Assembly: GCA_945861245.1 (NCBI GenBank)
Contig: CAMAUE010000003.1
Span: 1-64,000 of the forward strand
Direction of reading: 5' to 3'
From: Singulisphaera sp. GP187
GTDB taxonomy: Bacteria > Planctomycetota > Planctomycetia > Gemmatales > Gemmataceae
Length of the DNA stretch: 64,000 nucleotides
Part shown: piece after piece, positions 3,994 to 62,015 of the stretch
How positions within the stretch are numbered: position 1 is the first letter of the stretch
How the letters are laid out: each line of letters starts with the position of its first letter
The notes under the pieces: generated by a model
The model's database searches: none
Told to the model about the DNA's origin: nothing
The model's input: the letters and a program-made list of their open reading frames with translations, nothing else
Program-made: the position numbers and the translations under genes

Positions 3994-4023
3994 GACGTGG
4001 TCTCGTCGTAAACGTTTGAGTCG

Positions 4024-4117
4024 GTTAGCCGCTCGCCTTTGGCGAGCGAGGGCATGACGTTTTTCGGGCGATCGCAAATACGCTGCGTTCGCGCTCGCCA
4101 AAGGCGAGCGGCTAAAC
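4024..4117. repeat. Family A palindromic repeat
   Basis: TTAGCCGCTCGCCTTTGGCGAGCG ... CGCTCGCCAAAGGCGAGCGGCTAAAC. Confidence 0.9.
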
Positions 4118-4139
4118 GGGAATTGCGAAACACCGGCGA

Positions 4140-5096: not shown

Positions 5097-5134
5097 TTCA
5101 ATAATCCTCGGTCGGTGGTCAGTTGTGCCAATTC

Positions 5135-5209
5135 GTTTAGCTGCTCGCCTTCGGCGAGCGCGAGCCCCACAGCACAGATGCCGCGCTCGCCGAAGGCGAG
5201 CGGCTAAAC
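5135..5209. repeat. Family A palindromic repeat
   Basis: GTTTAGCTGCTCGCCTTCGGCGAGCGCGA ... GCGCTCGCCGAAGGCGAGCGGCTAAAC. Confidence 0.9.
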
Positions 5210-5226
5210 GGGCCCTTATTGGTTTA

Positions 5227-16969: not shown

Positions 16970-17107
16970 TAACCACAGAGGCACAGAGGCACAGAGAACA
17001 CAGAGGAAATACGTAGAATTGTGATTTGCAAGCCTCACGATTCCGCTTACAAATTCCGTCCACCATTCTTCGTGTTTTCTCTGTGTCCTCTGTGCCTCCG
17101 TGGTTCA
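16970..17107. repeat. Family E palindromic repeat
   Basis: AACCACAGAGGCACAGAGGCACAGAGAACACAGAGG ... TTTTCTCTGTGTCCTCTGTGCCTCCGTGGTT. Confidence 0.88.
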
Positions 17108-17270: not shown

Positions 17271-17335
17271 CGTTACCCCATTGTTGAACTAAAGTGACGA
17301 AGGGGTGCATGACAGAACTTGCGGAGAACTACAAT

Positions 17336-17414
17336 AAACCACGGATAACACCGAAAACAGGGATGGGAAAATACTGTGAAGGCAATCTTCCCTATCCGTG
17401 CGATCCGTGGCTAA
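17336..17414. repeat. Family F palindromic repeat (CCACGGAT // ATCCGTGG)
   Basis: ACCACGGATAACACCGAAAACAGGGAT ... CCCTATCCGTGCGATCCGTGGCT. Confidence 0.65.
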
Positions 17415-17461
17415 ATTCCTACAAGTGCTGTCGTGTACCTGTGATGAAGGCAAGGAATGCA

Positions 17462-18244
17462 ATGACGGAACCGATGAAAAAACCGCCGATCGCCGAGTCG
17501 CCGTTGAGCGTCGTGCTGATGGCACGCGCGCTTGACTCAGATACGTCTGTATCGCTTCGCGCCTGGAAGTCGCACCTGGACGGGATGAGACGTCCCTACG
17601 AATTATTTCTTATTCAGGAAAGCAGACCGGAGATCATGCCGGAGCCGAGTGATTCGGATGTGCGTGTTTTTTCTTGCTCGCACACCGATGGATTTCGCAT
17701 CGCGATCAACGATGCGATTCAGGCGGCGCAGCATCCGCTGTTGGTGTTGTGCCCGTGTGACAGGCAGTATTCGCCTGTCGATCTCGCGAAACTTCTCGGC
17801 GCAATCGACAAGGTTGATCTCGTCGCCGGTTATCGGCTCGGAGGCCAGGCGCCCCCGTTGCGGGTATTGCTCGATCTGGCGATCAACGTAATTTGCCGCA
17901 TCCTTGTCGGTTTACCGATGACGCAACGACTGACTTGGCTGGGCGGTCACGGTTGGGACCGACGCTGGATCGCGCGGTGGATATTTGGCGTGCGTGTCAC
18001 CGATCCGGAATGTGCGTTCTTGTTAGCACGGCGAGGCATCTTCAAGCGGATTCCGATCCAATCTGGTGGTCCGTTTCTGGTCACGGAGATACTCGCGAAG
18101 GCCAATCATCTGACGTGCCTTTTGGCCGAGGTGCCCGTGACTTGGAATCCGCCCAGCCATCCGCTCCACGATGCGATTTCGTTCGGCAGGGACGCGCAGA
18201 AGGTCTTCCTCGCGCCGGATTTCGGGCCATATCCCATAAGCTAA
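17462..18244 (+). CDS. Glycosyltransferase family 2-like protein
   Basis: LSVVLMARALDSDTSVSLRAWKSHLDGMRRPYELFLIQES ... LLVLCPCDRQYSPVDLAKLLGAIDKVDLVAGYRLG; start chosen downstream of the family F repeat. Confidence 0.7.
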   Translation: MTEPMKKPPIAESPLSVVLMARALDSDTSVSLRAWKSHLDGMRRPYELFLIQESRPEIMPEPSDSDVRVFSCSHTDGFRIAINDAIQAAQHPLLVLCPCDRQYSPVDLAKLLGAIDKVDLVAGYRLGGQAPPLRVLLDLAINVICRILVGLPMTQRLTWLGGHGWDRRWIARWIFGVRVTDPECAFLLARRGIFKRIPIQSGGPFLVTEILAKANHLTCLLAEVPVTWNPPSHPLHDAISFGRDAQKVFLAPDFGPYPIS

Positions 18245-18277: not shown

Positions 18278-18686
18278 AAGCCCATGGGTGAGGTCCTTCG
18301 AACCCCATTGGCACCAACTTAAGGAACTCAGGCCAGGCAATCAAATTTGAACCACAGAGGACACAGAGAAAATGTGCGGAATAGTGAATTCAGTGGTTTC
18401 AATAATCAACTTAGCCACGGATTGAACACGGATGAAACACGGATAAGAGGCAGAGTAGGAGCGAAAAACCAGGATATTTCACCATTATTTCCTTTCCGTG
18501 TTTCATCCGTGGCTAATTCTGGGAACTACTGGAATTGGAATTCTCACGATTTTGCGTGCCTTGTTCCTCTCCCATTCTTCGTATTTTCTCTGTGTCTTCT
18601 GTGCCTCTGTGGTTCAATTGTGTTTTTCCGATGCGAGTTCTTTAAGTTGATGCCCATGGGGTTCGGAGTACCTCACCCCTGGGCTT
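18278..18686. repeat. Three-tier nested inverted repeat
   Basis: Outer arms 18278-18329/18635-18686, middle family E arms 18347-18374/18583-18617, inner family F arms 18412-18446/18493-18515. Confidence 0.88.
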
Positions 18687-18729: not shown

Positions 18730-21552
18730 ATGACGCGATATTTGATCGGCATTGACCTCGGAACAACGAACAGCGCGGTGGCGTATATCGATCTGGCGAG
18801 CGGGAAGTTCGGCGTTGGCGGCGCACCGGCGATTCACCCGTTCGCGATTTCGCAGCTTGTCGCTCCCGCGGAGTCCGCGCCGCGGCCGCTGTTGCCGTCG
18901 TTTCTGTATCTTCCGGGTAGCCACGATCTACCGGCCGGCGCGACGGCCTTGCCCTGGAATCCGGCATCTCCCTACGCGGTCGGCGAATTTGCACGCAATC
19001 ATGGCGCCAAGGTTCCGGGTCGGCTAGTCACGTCGGCCAAGTCATGGTTGTGCCATGCGGGTGTCGATCGCTCGGCCCCGCTGCTGCCGTGGAGTGCGCC
19101 GCCGGATGTTGTACGCATCTCGCCTGTTGAAGCCTCCATGCGTTATTTGCGTCACATCGTCGAGGCGTGGAATCACACGATGGCGGCGAAGCACGCGGAG
19201 TACCGCTTCGAGAAACAGGCGGTTGTCCTCACCGTGCCCGCATCGTTCGATGATGTCGCACGCACGCTCACCGTCGAGGCGGCACGGAAGGCGGGTATCG
19301 AAAATCTCACGCTGCTCGAAGAACCGCAAGCCGCGTTCTACTGCTGGCTCGCGACGCACAGCCCGCAGGAAGCCGCTCGGCTCAAGCCGGGCGATCACTG
19401 TCTCGTCGTGGACGTCGGCGGCGGGACGACCGATTTCAGCCTCATCCAGGCCGGCGAGCATCAGGGCGGGTTGACGTTCTTGCGCCAGGCCGTCGGCGAT
19501 CATCTCCTGCTCGGCGGCGATAACATGGACCTCGCCCTGGCCAAGTTCATCGAAACGAAACTGCCCGCCGCCGGGAAACTCGATGCGGCTCAGTACAGCC
19601 TGCTCACGCAAGCCTGTCGGCAAGGTAAGGAAACGCTGCTCGGCGCCACGCCGCCGGACCGACATTCGGTCACCGTGATGGGGCGAGGCCGATCGGTCAT
19701 CGGCGGTTCGCTGAATGCGACACTGACGCCTGACGAGGTGCGCAAGATCATCCTCGACGGCTTTTTCCCAAGCGTCGAGAAAAACGCTGAGCCGACGCGC
19801 GGCGCACGCACCGGCCTGCACGAGATGGGCCTGCCCTATGTCAACGATCCAGCGATCACGCGGCATCTGGCCAGCTTCCTCAAGAAGCATCTCTCTGCAA
19901 CCGGCGAGACGATTGCTCCGAACGCCATCCTCTTCAACGGCGGCGTCTTCACAGCCGGCGCGTTGCGCGAGCGTATCGTACAGGTGCTGCATCACTGGTT
20001 TGATGGGCAACAGAAAAATTGGCAGCCGCTCGTGCTGACCAACCCATCGCTCGACCTCGCCGTCGCTTTGGGAGCGGCTTACTTCGGCTGGCTGAAGCAT
20101 ACCGGCGGGCGACGCATCGGCGGCGGTATGGCGCGGTCGTACTATCTCGGCATCAACGCCGAGGCCAAGAGCGAAACGAAAACGACCGTACTTTGCGTTG
20201 TGCCTCAGCATCTTGAGGAAGGCCAGGAGATCGATCTCGCCAAGCCGGAGTTGGAACTATCGCTGGGCCAACCGGTGATGTTTCCGCTTTTCTCGTCAAC
20301 CGTGCGCGCTTCGGACAAGGCCGGCGATTTACTCGATGTCGCGCCGTCGCAACTCTTGCACATGCCGCCGTTGCACACGGTGCTTCGTGGCGGCAAGCGC
20401 AGCGGCACGAAGAGCGTGCCCGTCACCCTCTCGGCACGCTGTACGGAGATCGGCACGCTCGAGCTTTTCTGTGTCGCGAAGGACGGTCACAACCGCTGGC
20501 GGCTTGAGTTCAACACCCGCGACATCGTCCGGGATGAGGACGACGGCGAGAACAACGAAAAAGCAAGCGCTCCGACCGATGTCTGGCCCGAGGAGTTGGT
20601 GCAAGCTGCCGCCGAGCGAATTCGCGCGGTTTATTCGGGGAACGCCGAATCATCGGATCCGAAGCAGTTGACGAAAGAGCTTGAAGTCGCACTGGATGCC
20701 GGGCGCGACAAATGGCCGACCGGGCTGTGCCGACGCATGTGGGAGTTCTTGATCGCCGCCGCCGATCACCGCAAGGCCTCACCGGCGCATCTATCACGCT
20801 GGTACAACCTTGTCGGCTTCACGTTGCGACCGGGATTCGGCGATGGCATGGACAAGTTTCGCGTTGAGCAACTGTGGAAGCTGTTGCATTCCGCGCCGAA
20901 GGGCGCGAAAGCGGGCCTCATTCAGCCCGAAGGCGGGGCCGACTTCTGGATCATGTGGCGCCGCGTCGCCGGCGGGTTGACGACCGGTTTGCAGACGACG
21001 CTCTTCAATCGCTTGCGCCCGGTGCTGTTGCCGAAAAGCAGCGGCCCGAAACCGTCGGCGAATGAATTCACGGAGATGTGGCGCGCCGCCGCGGCGCTCG
21101 AACGACTTGACCTGAAGTCGAAAGAGCAACTCGGCGAAGCAGCGTTGAAAAGCTGCCGGCGCAGTCCCACGTCGCCGCATGCATTCTTTGCGCTGACTCG
21201 CCTCGGCGCTCGGGTGTTGCTCTATGGGCCGCTGAATGCGGTGCTGCACCCGCAGGTCGTGCAAAAGTGGATCGACGCCCTACTGCCGTTCGAGCCTGGC
21301 CATCAAAGCGAGCGCATCGCATTTTCGTTTTGCCTGGCACAACTCGCGCGACGCAGCGGCCAGCGGGCGATCGACATTGACGACGCGCATCAAGAACAGG
21401 TGTTGGCCGCGCTTCGAGCGCAGCATGCGCCGGCGCATTGGATTCGCATGGTGGAGGAGGTCGTCGAACTGGATGCGGACGAACAGAGTCAAATGTTCGG
21501 CGAGGCATTGCCCATTGGTTTGCGGTTGATCAAAACAGAGGCAACAGAGTAA
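18730..21552 (+). CDS. Hsp70 family protein with long C-terminal extension
   Basis: MTRYLIGIDLGTTNSAVAYIDL; LVVDVGGGTTDFSLIQAG; NAILFNGGVFTAGALRERI. Confidence 0.9.
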   Translation: MTRYLIGIDLGTTNSAVAYIDLASGKFGVGGAPAIHPFAISQLVAPAESAPRPLLPSFLYLPGSHDLPAGATALPWNPASPYAVGEFARNHGAKVPGRLVTSAKSWLCHAGVDRSAPLLPWSAPPDVVRISPVEASMRYLRHIVEAWNHTMAAKHAEYRFEKQAVVLTVPASFDDVARTLTVEAARKAGIENLTLLEEPQAAFYCWLATHSPQEAARLKPGDHCLVVDVGGGTTDFSLIQAGEHQGGLTFLRQAVGDHLLLGGDNMDLALAKFIETKLPAAGKLDAAQYSLLTQACRQGKETLLGATPPDRHSVTVMGRGRSVIGGSLNATLTPDEVRKIILDGFFPSVEKNAEPTRGARTGLHEMGLPYVNDPAITRHLASFLKKHLSATGETIAPNAILFNGGVFTAGALRERIVQVLHHWFDGQQKNWQPLVLTNPSLDLAVALGAAYFGWLKHTGGRRIGGGMARSYYLGINAEAKSETKTTVLCVVPQHLEEGQEIDLAKPELELSLGQPVMFPLFSSTVRASDKAGDLLDVAPSQLLHMPPLHTVLRGGKRSGTKSVPVTLSARCTEIGTLELFCVAKDGHNRWRLEFNTRDIVRDEDDGENNEKASAPTDVWPEELVQAAAERIRAVYSGNAESSDPKQLTKELEVALDAGRDKWPTGLCRRMWEFLIAAADHRKASPAHLSRWYNLVGFTLRPGFGDGMDKFRVEQLWKLLHSAPKGAKAGLIQPEGGADFWIMWRRVAGGLTTGLQTTLFNRLRPVLLPKSSGPKPSANEFTEMWRAAAALERLDLKSKEQLGEAALKSCRRSPTSPHAFFALTRLGARVLLYGPLNAVLHPQVVQKWIDALLPFEPGHQSERIAFSFCLAQLARRSGQRAIDIDDAHQEQVLAALRAQHAPAHWIRMVEEVVELDADEQSQMFGEALPIGLRLIKTEATE

Positions 21553-30522: not shown

Positions 30523-30548
30523 GGGGTGTGCCTCGGTGTTTCACGAAT

Positions 30549-30605
30549 TGCCGCTTGCGGCTTAGCGCTCGCAAGGCGCTAGCTGAGCGCTAAGCCGCAA
30601 GCGAC
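30549..30605. repeat. Family B palindromic repeat
   Basis: GCCGCTTGCGGCTTAGCGCTCGC ... TGAGCGCTAAGCCGCAAGCG. Confidence 0.9.
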
Positions 30606-30629
30606 AACTCGTGATTCCAAATTTCAAAT

Positions 30630-42191: not shown

Positions 42192-42200
42192 CGATTAGCC

Positions 42201-42275
42201 GTTTAGCCGCTCGCCACTGGCGAGCGCGAATTGCGATCGCTACATGTCGCGCTCGCCAAAGGCGAGCGGCTAAAC
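42201..42275. repeat. Family A palindromic repeat
   Basis: GTTTAGCCGCTCGCCACTGGCGAGCGCGA ... GCGCTCGCCAAAGGCGAGCGGCTAAAC. Confidence 0.9.
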
Positions 42276-42281
42276 GGGCTG

Positions 42282-45499: not shown

Positions 45500-45512
45500 A
45501 GCTTCTCGCATT

Positions 45513-45557
45513 TGCCGCTTGCGGCTTAGCGCTCAACGTATCCAACGCGGCGCTAAA
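45513..45557. repeat. Family B repeat with shortened right arm
   Basis: TGCCGCTTGCGGCTTAGCGCTC ... GCGGCGCTAAAT. Confidence 0.65.
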
Positions 45558-45585
45558 TGAAATCGATACCGACAGGAAACCTGCC

Positions 45586-46143
45586 ATGCCAACCCCCTAC
45601 CCAAAACTTCTCGATGCCTTCAAAACCCGCGCGTTCTCTTTCGGCGATTTCACGCTCGCATCGGGCAAGAAAAGCAGCTACTACGTCAACAGCAAGAAGG
45701 CGATCTTCAACAGCGAAGTCGTCAACCTGCTCAGCGATGCGATGTGGGACATGACGAAGGACCTCAGCATCGACGCCGCCGGCGGACTCGAAGTCGGTGC
45801 GATCTCATTGGCTGCGGTGCTGGCCCAACGCTTCGCGATGCAGGGCAAGCCGCTTGAAGGTTTCTTCGTCCGCAAGCAGGCGAAATCGCATGGCAGTCAG
45901 GAGCGAGTCGAAGGCGTGCTCAAGCCCGGCATGCGCGTCGCCGTCCTCGATGACGTGCTGACCACGGGCGGTTCGATGTTGCAAGCGATCGCGGAGATCG
46001 AGAAGGTCGGGGCGATCGTTGTCGCGGCCGTCTGCATCGTCGATCGTCTCGAAGGTGCGCGTGAGGCACTTGGGAAGTACGCGTTTCTGCCGATCTTCAC
46101 GATCCGCGACTTCGGCATCGAACCGCCGCCTCCCCCCGTTTAG
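45586..46143 (+). CDS. pyrE: Orotate phosphoribosyltransferase
   Basis: FTLASGKKSSYYVNSKKAIFN; VAVLDDVLTTGGSMLQAI PRPP motif. Confidence 0.92.
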   Translation: MPTPYPKLLDAFKTRAFSFGDFTLASGKKSSYYVNSKKAIFNSEVVNLLSDAMWDMTKDLSIDAAGGLEVGAISLAAVLAQRFAMQGKPLEGFFVRKQAKSHGSQERVEGVLKPGMRVAVLDDVLTTGGSMLQAIAEIEKVGAIVVAAVCIVDRLEGAREALGKYAFLPIFTIRDFGIEPPPPPV

Positions 46144-46202
46144 CGCCCGCTACGTGCGTTCCGAAACGGCAGGGACTTTGCGAGCGCTAAGCCGCAAGCG
46201 GA
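46138..46202. repeat. Partial family B repeat overlapping the pyrE stop codon
   Basis: GTTTAGCGC left remnant; intact right arm GCGAGCGCTAAGCCGCAAGCGGA. Confidence 0.7.
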
Positions 46203-46284
46203 GAATCGAATTCTTTTTCTTTTTTGATGGCATTCGCAGTTTGACCGTGTTACGGTTTTCTCAATCACCACGGAAGTGGACCCA

Positions 46285-53106: not shown

Positions 53107-53146
53107 CGTACGATCTCCGTAGGGAATACCGAGTGTGATCTTCCTT

Positions 53147-53210
53147 GATTTCCGCTTGCGGCTTAGCGCTCAAGTGGGACGTTCCGAGCGCTAAGCCGCA
53201 AGCGGAAATC
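53147..53210. repeat. Family B palindromic repeat with perfect 25-nt arms
   Basis: GATTTCCGCTTGCGGCTTAGCGCTC ... GAGCGCTAAGCCGCAAGCGGAAATC. Confidence 0.95.
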
Positions 53211-53227
53211 AATCGTGGACCAACATC

Positions 53228-61880: not shown

Positions 61881-61904
61881 CAACAGTCAAATAATGTTGA
61901 TTCC

Positions 61905-61985
61905 GTTTAGCCGCTCGCCTTTGGCGAGCGCGAACTCCGTGCCGCACGCTACCTGTTCGCGCTCGCCCAAGGCGAGCGGCTAAAC
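61905..61985. repeat. Family A palindromic repeat
   Basis: GTTTAGCCGCTCGCCTTTGGCGAGCGCGA ... TCGCGCTCGCCCAAGGCGAGCGGCTAAAC. Confidence 0.9.
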
Positions 61986-62015
61986 AAAAACAAAAATGCC
62001 ACAAGAGGCACCACC

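Follow-up and report, generated by a model that had tools for sequence, protein, structure and literature searches.

A nested palindrome ahead of a planctomycete Hsp70-like gene as a probable pile of mobile elements on a REP-like hairpin

In the REP/BIME-RAYT system, or 'REPtron', palindromes of 20-40 nt occur in hundreds of copies, both singly and as inverted pairs, and bracket the gene of a Y1/HUH transposase. Described REP tags read GTAG or CGTC (PMC3733652), and class 3, which is rich in Planctomycetes, carries a CnGA foot (PMC6006769). REP palindromes are in turn the landing sites of a number of insertion sequences, such as IS1397, ISKpn1, IS621, ISPpu9, ISPpu10 and others, with members of the IS4 family among them (PMC1525189). 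Elements of that family carry a YREK transposase motif; their target duplications measure 7-13 bp over the whole family and 10-12 bp in the IS231 subgroup, whose ends bear the signature CAT(7)AA(2)TAA, while IS1634 has long, variable duplications and the ISH3 family has CRGT ends and duplications of 4-5 bp (PMC2266710).

The window, by which we mean the whole 64-kb stretch of Singulisphaera sp. DNA that was analysed and whose gene content suggests a planctomycete host, contains at 18278-18686 a palindrome that is its longest inverted repeat within 700 bp. The inverted arms, at 18278-18360 and 18604-18686, are 81% identical over 83 nt; two inner pairs of arms lie at 18353-18382/18574-18603 and at 18411-18432/18495-18516, and all three pairs are strictly nested. 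The predicted RNA fold has an energy of -198.9 kcal/mol, compared with a mean of -114.7 for shuffled sequences (z = -15.1), and none of 100 shuffles folds as well. The palindrome ends 43 nt upstream of the ATG of an Hsp70-like gene (18730-21552, 940 aa), which was found in 53 of the 57 genomes searched. The flanking genes are co-directional, the upstream one (17294-18244) being by inspection a putative glycosyltransferase-like ORF that is collinear in the sister species. Promoter and terminator scans of the palindrome returned none, and a search against Rfam gave only chance matches to plant microRNAs, far under the cut-off.

The earlier note on this DNA had described a nested palindrome composed of three repeat families, with outer arms of 52 nt. 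The strict nesting stands and lies well beyond chance, but we count four families rather than three, because the 52-nt outer arm, although present, is a fusion of two of these families: the stretch 18278-18305 is one half of a hairpin that we call R, and from 18306 onward lies the terminal inverted repeat of a miniature element, E2. A genome-wide search finds the outer, middle and inner parts each separately from one another. In what follows, G000 denotes this genome and G005 that of its sister species, and G000-G006 are the seven genomes of the genus; the parts of the palindrome, the two flanking genes and the solo palindrome at 16971-17105 are given on the plus strand unless stated otherwise.

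The left half of R consists of the stem AAGCCCA and a 20-bp target copy, GGGTGAGGTCCTTCGAACCC (18286-18305); the R core is matched at 18285. The right half (18659-18686, minus strand) consists of a second target copy (18659-18678), which is inverted relative to the left one and agrees with it at 18/20 positions, and the stem TGGGCTT. The intact hairpin reads AAGCCCA-GGGGTGAGGTACTCCGAACCCC-TGGGCTT. It stands alone, as a 36-bp hairpin, at L060 and L061; at L056-L059 two copies face each other across a loop of 10-20 nt, and inverted pairs of this kind, which resemble BIME dimers, are also found at L199 and L202-L204. Allowing up to three mismatches, the R core has 238 dispersed copies in G000, 421 in G005, and between 9 and 180 in each of the five remaining congeners; a single other genus of the family has 12, and another 49 relatives have none. 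The core covers 0.09% of the genome. Its backward sequence, used as a control, has no match in any of G000-G006.

In G006, an ORF of 176 aa that resembles a Y1 transposase has an R doublet ahead of it and an R behind it, and a 66% homologue in G005 has R on both sides. The HxH motif and the tyrosine are conserved in all 12 aligned homologues. Because of this anatomy and this association with a transposase, we regard R as a REP-like, putatively RAYT-associated hairpin, whose family most likely owes its spread to a HUH transposase of RAYT-like type. In its size, its hundreds of copies, its single and inverted-pair forms, and its bracketing of a Y1/HUH gene in two genomes, R is much like the REPtron palindromes. 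It differs in its foot, since the tag before the stem is CAAG rather than GTAG, CGTC (PMC3733652) or CnGA (PMC6006769), and in the protein that it flanks, which scores below the curated cut-offs for RAYT (NF047646, 22.9 bits versus 80) and for Y1_Tnp (PF01797, 21.3 versus 23). On account of the tag and the sub-threshold scores, we set R apart from the GTAG, CGTC and CnGA groups. Homologues of the Y1 protein elsewhere, including the one of G000, have hairpins other than R on either side, and most of these hairpins likewise start with CAAG. Along the same lines, the RAYT-like genes of several genera (L258-L269) are each flanked by a hairpin of their own, mostly CAAG-initial.

Between the two halves of R lies E2 (18306-18658, boundaries computed along with its flanks), which is 353 bp long in the window, and about 205-225 bp long where it lacks the inner element E3. 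Its ends are CATTGGCACCAACTTAAG...TTTAAGTTGATGCCCATG, of the general form CAT(A/T)GGCACCAACTTAAG. Having terminal inverted repeats and many copies, and being too short to encode a transposase, E2 is a MITE. We measured the flanks of 43 copies in G000 and G005, which do not represent 43 independent events because many are orthologous between the two genomes. Direct duplications of 20 bp flank 31 of the 43 copies (with matches of 16-20/20 or 18-20/21), and inverted flanks are found at 10, the window copy among them. Nearly all copies sit in R, small as its share of the genome is; at two sites that are not R the 20-bp duplication is found again (L164, 19/20; L037, by eye). E2 ends of the type seen in G000 and G005 are enriched in those two genomes only. 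At one locus in G001 (L279, G001:C96:338-376), the neighbour of an E2-type end is another REP-like hairpin, GGGCCTCGCTTTGCTCGACCC; since that hairpin is not R, targeting by elements of the E2 type is not confined to R.

Insertion of E2 into R is supported by orthologous sites. At three loci whose flanks match closely, R stands by itself in G000 but has E2 inside it in G005 (L057/L149, L059/L174 and L060/L188). At L059/L174, one species has an R doublet where the other has R, E2 and an inverted R. The window copy does not exhibit the textbook duplication, because its two 20-bp flanks are inverted rather than direct; most simply, we infer, one of them was turned around when a template switch or slippage took place in the palindrome. 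Like the REP-targeting insertion sequences (PMC1525189), then, E2 uses REP palindromes as landing sites. Unlike them, it is a MITE that is itself host to further elements, and its duplication spans the REP loop together with 3 bp of each side of the stem.

When the E2-type end was searched for throughout the family, it led to a 1441-bp contig from another genus (G361:C537, L312) with perfectly matching ends on both sides. The 442-aa ORF between these ends encodes a transposase of the IS4 family (NF033592, 181.8 bits versus a cut-off of 115; DDE_Tnp_1, 1.6e-19), in which the motif Y(2)R(3)E(6)K reads YRARWQIELLFKRWK, and the E2-type end fits the IS231 signature. Of the distinct 20-mers that flank such ends in several genera, 33 of 36 have the form GG...CC, a preference that peaks sharply at 20 bp. 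The assemblies are fragmented at repeats and some copies are broken at contig ends; in G366, two contig ends (L344/L353) carry 20-mers that are exact reverse complements, as the left and right flanks of a single insertion should be, and a second pair (L315/L349) lies in repeated sequence and constitutes weaker evidence. More distant relatives in G351, 35% identical, have a 10-bp duplication in several copies by inspection. Mobilisation of the elements in this species is judged from relatives, because no IS4-family transposase of this kind was found in the assemblies G000-G006, and no Y1 gene adjoining R was found in G000. A search for an autonomous E2 relative within the genus returned none, and the singletons L277 and L278 are truncated copies of E2.

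IS231A prefers GGG-N5-CCC targets, and so shares the G...C frame seen here, in addition to the likeness of ends and transposase motif. Conversely, the duplication of 20 bp in both E2 and the G366 insertion exceeds the 10-12 bp of IS231 and the 7-13 bp of the family (PMC2266710), and the target in this genus is a REP stem-loop. Two other assignments for E2 were considered and rejected. Elements of the IS1202 type make duplications of more than 15 bp (PMC10132070), but their ends are TGT where those of E2 are CAT, and the partner that we found belongs to the IS4 family. As for IS1634, its duplications vary where those of E2 have a constant length, and the transposase scores far better with the IS4 model than with the IS1634 model.

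Judged from sequence comparison, E2 and the elements that share its ends would constitute a new lineage of the IS4 family whose target, strictly 20 bp long and of the form GG-N16-CC, lies in this genus mostly in REP hairpins. What is recognised in GG...CC could be the sequence rather than the structure, and both the mobility of the elements and their recognition of stem-loops are putative. We see roughly even odds for a more specific scenario, in which an IS4 lineage would have widened its target cut from 10 bp, about one turn of DNA, to 20 bp, or two turns, and would recognise GG(G)-N14-(C)CC stem-loops. RAYT-made REP hairpins would then serve as landing pads, and each inserted palindrome as the next pad, so as to produce self-building nests of up to five tiers.

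The innermost element, E3 (18391-18531), is a 141-bp MITE with ends CAGTGGTTTC and GGGAACTACTG and arms of ACGGAT type, TTAGCCACGGATTGAACACGGAT.... Copies of E2 that lack it read GTGAATTGGAATTC at the insertion point, which is the empty site. The window reads GTGAATT, then the 141 bp from CAGTGG to CTACTG, and then GAATTGG. That is, the target GAATT is duplicated at 18386-18390 and 18532-18536, with a match of 5/5; other copies of E3 have duplications matching at 4/5 and 3/5. Relatives of E3 stand alone or sit in other nests, and a plasmid search for E3 gave no matches. The CAGT ends and the 5-bp duplication in the window recall the ISH3 family, for which a signature of four letters is a weak one; unlike that family, E3 has no autonomous relative or transposase that we could find.

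The CACAGAG-armed hairpin repeat, HRE, lies within E2 and is split by E3, its arms beginning at 18350 and ending at 18614. All the E2 copies inspected from G000 and G005 contain HRE, and so do related elements of G006 (L158) and G020 (L122, L322), whereas HRE is not visible in an element with the same ends from another genus (G400, L316). It also occurs alone at many sites in the genome, for example as an independent palindrome at 16971-17105 of the window. Among 296 genomes of the phylum, 43 contain HRE, with no control matches; a plasmid search returned two partial matches, in Anabaena cylindrica and Gemmatirosa, and a literature search for the CACAGAG sequence found nothing relevant. HRE is either one ancient insertion into E2 or part of E2 itself. 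When the solo HRE at 16971-17105 is compared with its G005 orthologue, 8 nt differ, and they do so in the two arms together, which looks as though the arms had been kept matched.

The earlier note had staked its account on these families nesting elsewhere, and they do. At L205 (G005:C41:12000-13700, 420-1170) there are five tiers: R, E2, a CACAGAG pair, an ACGAAAG-armed palindrome and, innermost, an AGGAAGG-armed palindrome. At L051 and L148, an ACGGAT palindrome lies within an ACGGAA palindrome, which lies within a CACAGAG-ended element. The short tandem arm units CACAGAG, CACGGAT, CACGGAA and ACGAAAG look like one design class.

We conclude, with a probability of about 0.86, that the palindrome is a stack of non-autonomous mobile elements piled up by successive insertions. 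The sequence of events would be as follows. A CAAG-tagged REP-like hairpin, R, would have settled in the gap between the two co-directional genes. E2, already carrying HRE and bearing IS4-family terminal repeats of the IS231 type, would then have inserted into the stem-loop of R, presumably moved by an enzyme of that family, duplicating the 20-bp GGG-N14-CCC target, of which one copy was, perhaps by template switching or slippage, inverted. Next, E3 would have inserted into E2 and duplicated GAATT, and the stack would have been present in the common ancestor of G000 and G005 and inherited since. Of the stepwise insertion proposed in the earlier note, the entry of E2 into R is thus borne out by 20-bp duplications and by empty and filled orthologous sites, and that of E3 into E2 by the GAATT duplication and the empty site in other E2 copies; for the CACAGAG pair, the copies examined reveal no insertion event of its own into E2. 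At this very locus, too, R probably preceded E2; no orthologous locus without R was found, since the gene order ahead of the Hsp70-like gene is no longer conserved beyond G005.

The same note had offered a composite element as an alternative, and a version of it can be stated in which the whole 409-bp palindrome transposes as a unit, for example by means of a RAYT acting on the bounding inverted REPs. Indeed, the outermost sequences are inverted halves of a REP, an arrangement that a RAYT would recognise, and the 10 E2 copies with inverted R flanks share it. The full stack, however, was found once per genome, here and at the same locus in G005 (97% identical); being at one locus common to both genomes, it has been inherited and has not moved as a unit. 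Moreover, none of the other E2 copies examined in G000 and G005 contains E3, R is found many times without E2, and E2 is found at non-R sites with a 20-bp duplication of its own. We therefore consider transposition of the whole as very improbable, and retain successive insertion.

It is also conceivable that the palindrome is a selected RNA element in the leader of the Hsp70-like mRNA, such as a thermosensor or a stability element. The very stable predicted fold close ahead of the start codon and the 97% conservation in G005 accord with such a role, as does the presence in G006 (L093, about 1317-1451) of an unrelated CACAGAG palindrome upstream of the orthologous Hsp70-like gene. But three other congeners have no such sequence in the 500 nt upstream, or are unreadable there, the stack resembles its G005 counterpart no more closely than the adjacent gene does (97.8%), and no Rfam family matches. 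A selected role would thus be a long shot. Our default reading is that the stack is mobile DNA tolerated between genes, which may affect the mRNA leader; its folding in the Hsp70-like leader is a prediction.

Least probable of all, if only slightly, is that the arms arose in place, through inverted duplication or a template switch and without transposition: the matched arms of the solo HRE and the inverted target copies of some E2 insertions are what such a process would leave, yet members of these families are also found at unrelated loci, where there are target duplications and orthologous sites that are empty, and the process survives only as a secondary one.

Stacking by successive insertion explains a striking palindrome as stepwise transposition with an order of events, and brings three mobile systems into one account, in which RAYT-associated REPs are the targets, an IS4-derived MITE is the insert, and widespread hairpin repeats with tandem arms are the passengers. 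A fixed duplication of 20 bp, outside the published range of 7-13 bp, offers a way to test how target stagger is linked to the geometry of the transpososome, and CAAG-tagged REPs are here described with transposases of their own.

The window also contains other palindromes of REP-like form. A second family, GTTTAGCCGCTCGCC...GGCGAGCGGCTAAAC, is found at 805-885, 4022-4118, 5134-5210, 42199-42277 and 61897-61993, and a third, CCGCTTGCGGCTTAGCGCTC, at 30541-30614, 53145-53212 and 45510-46206.
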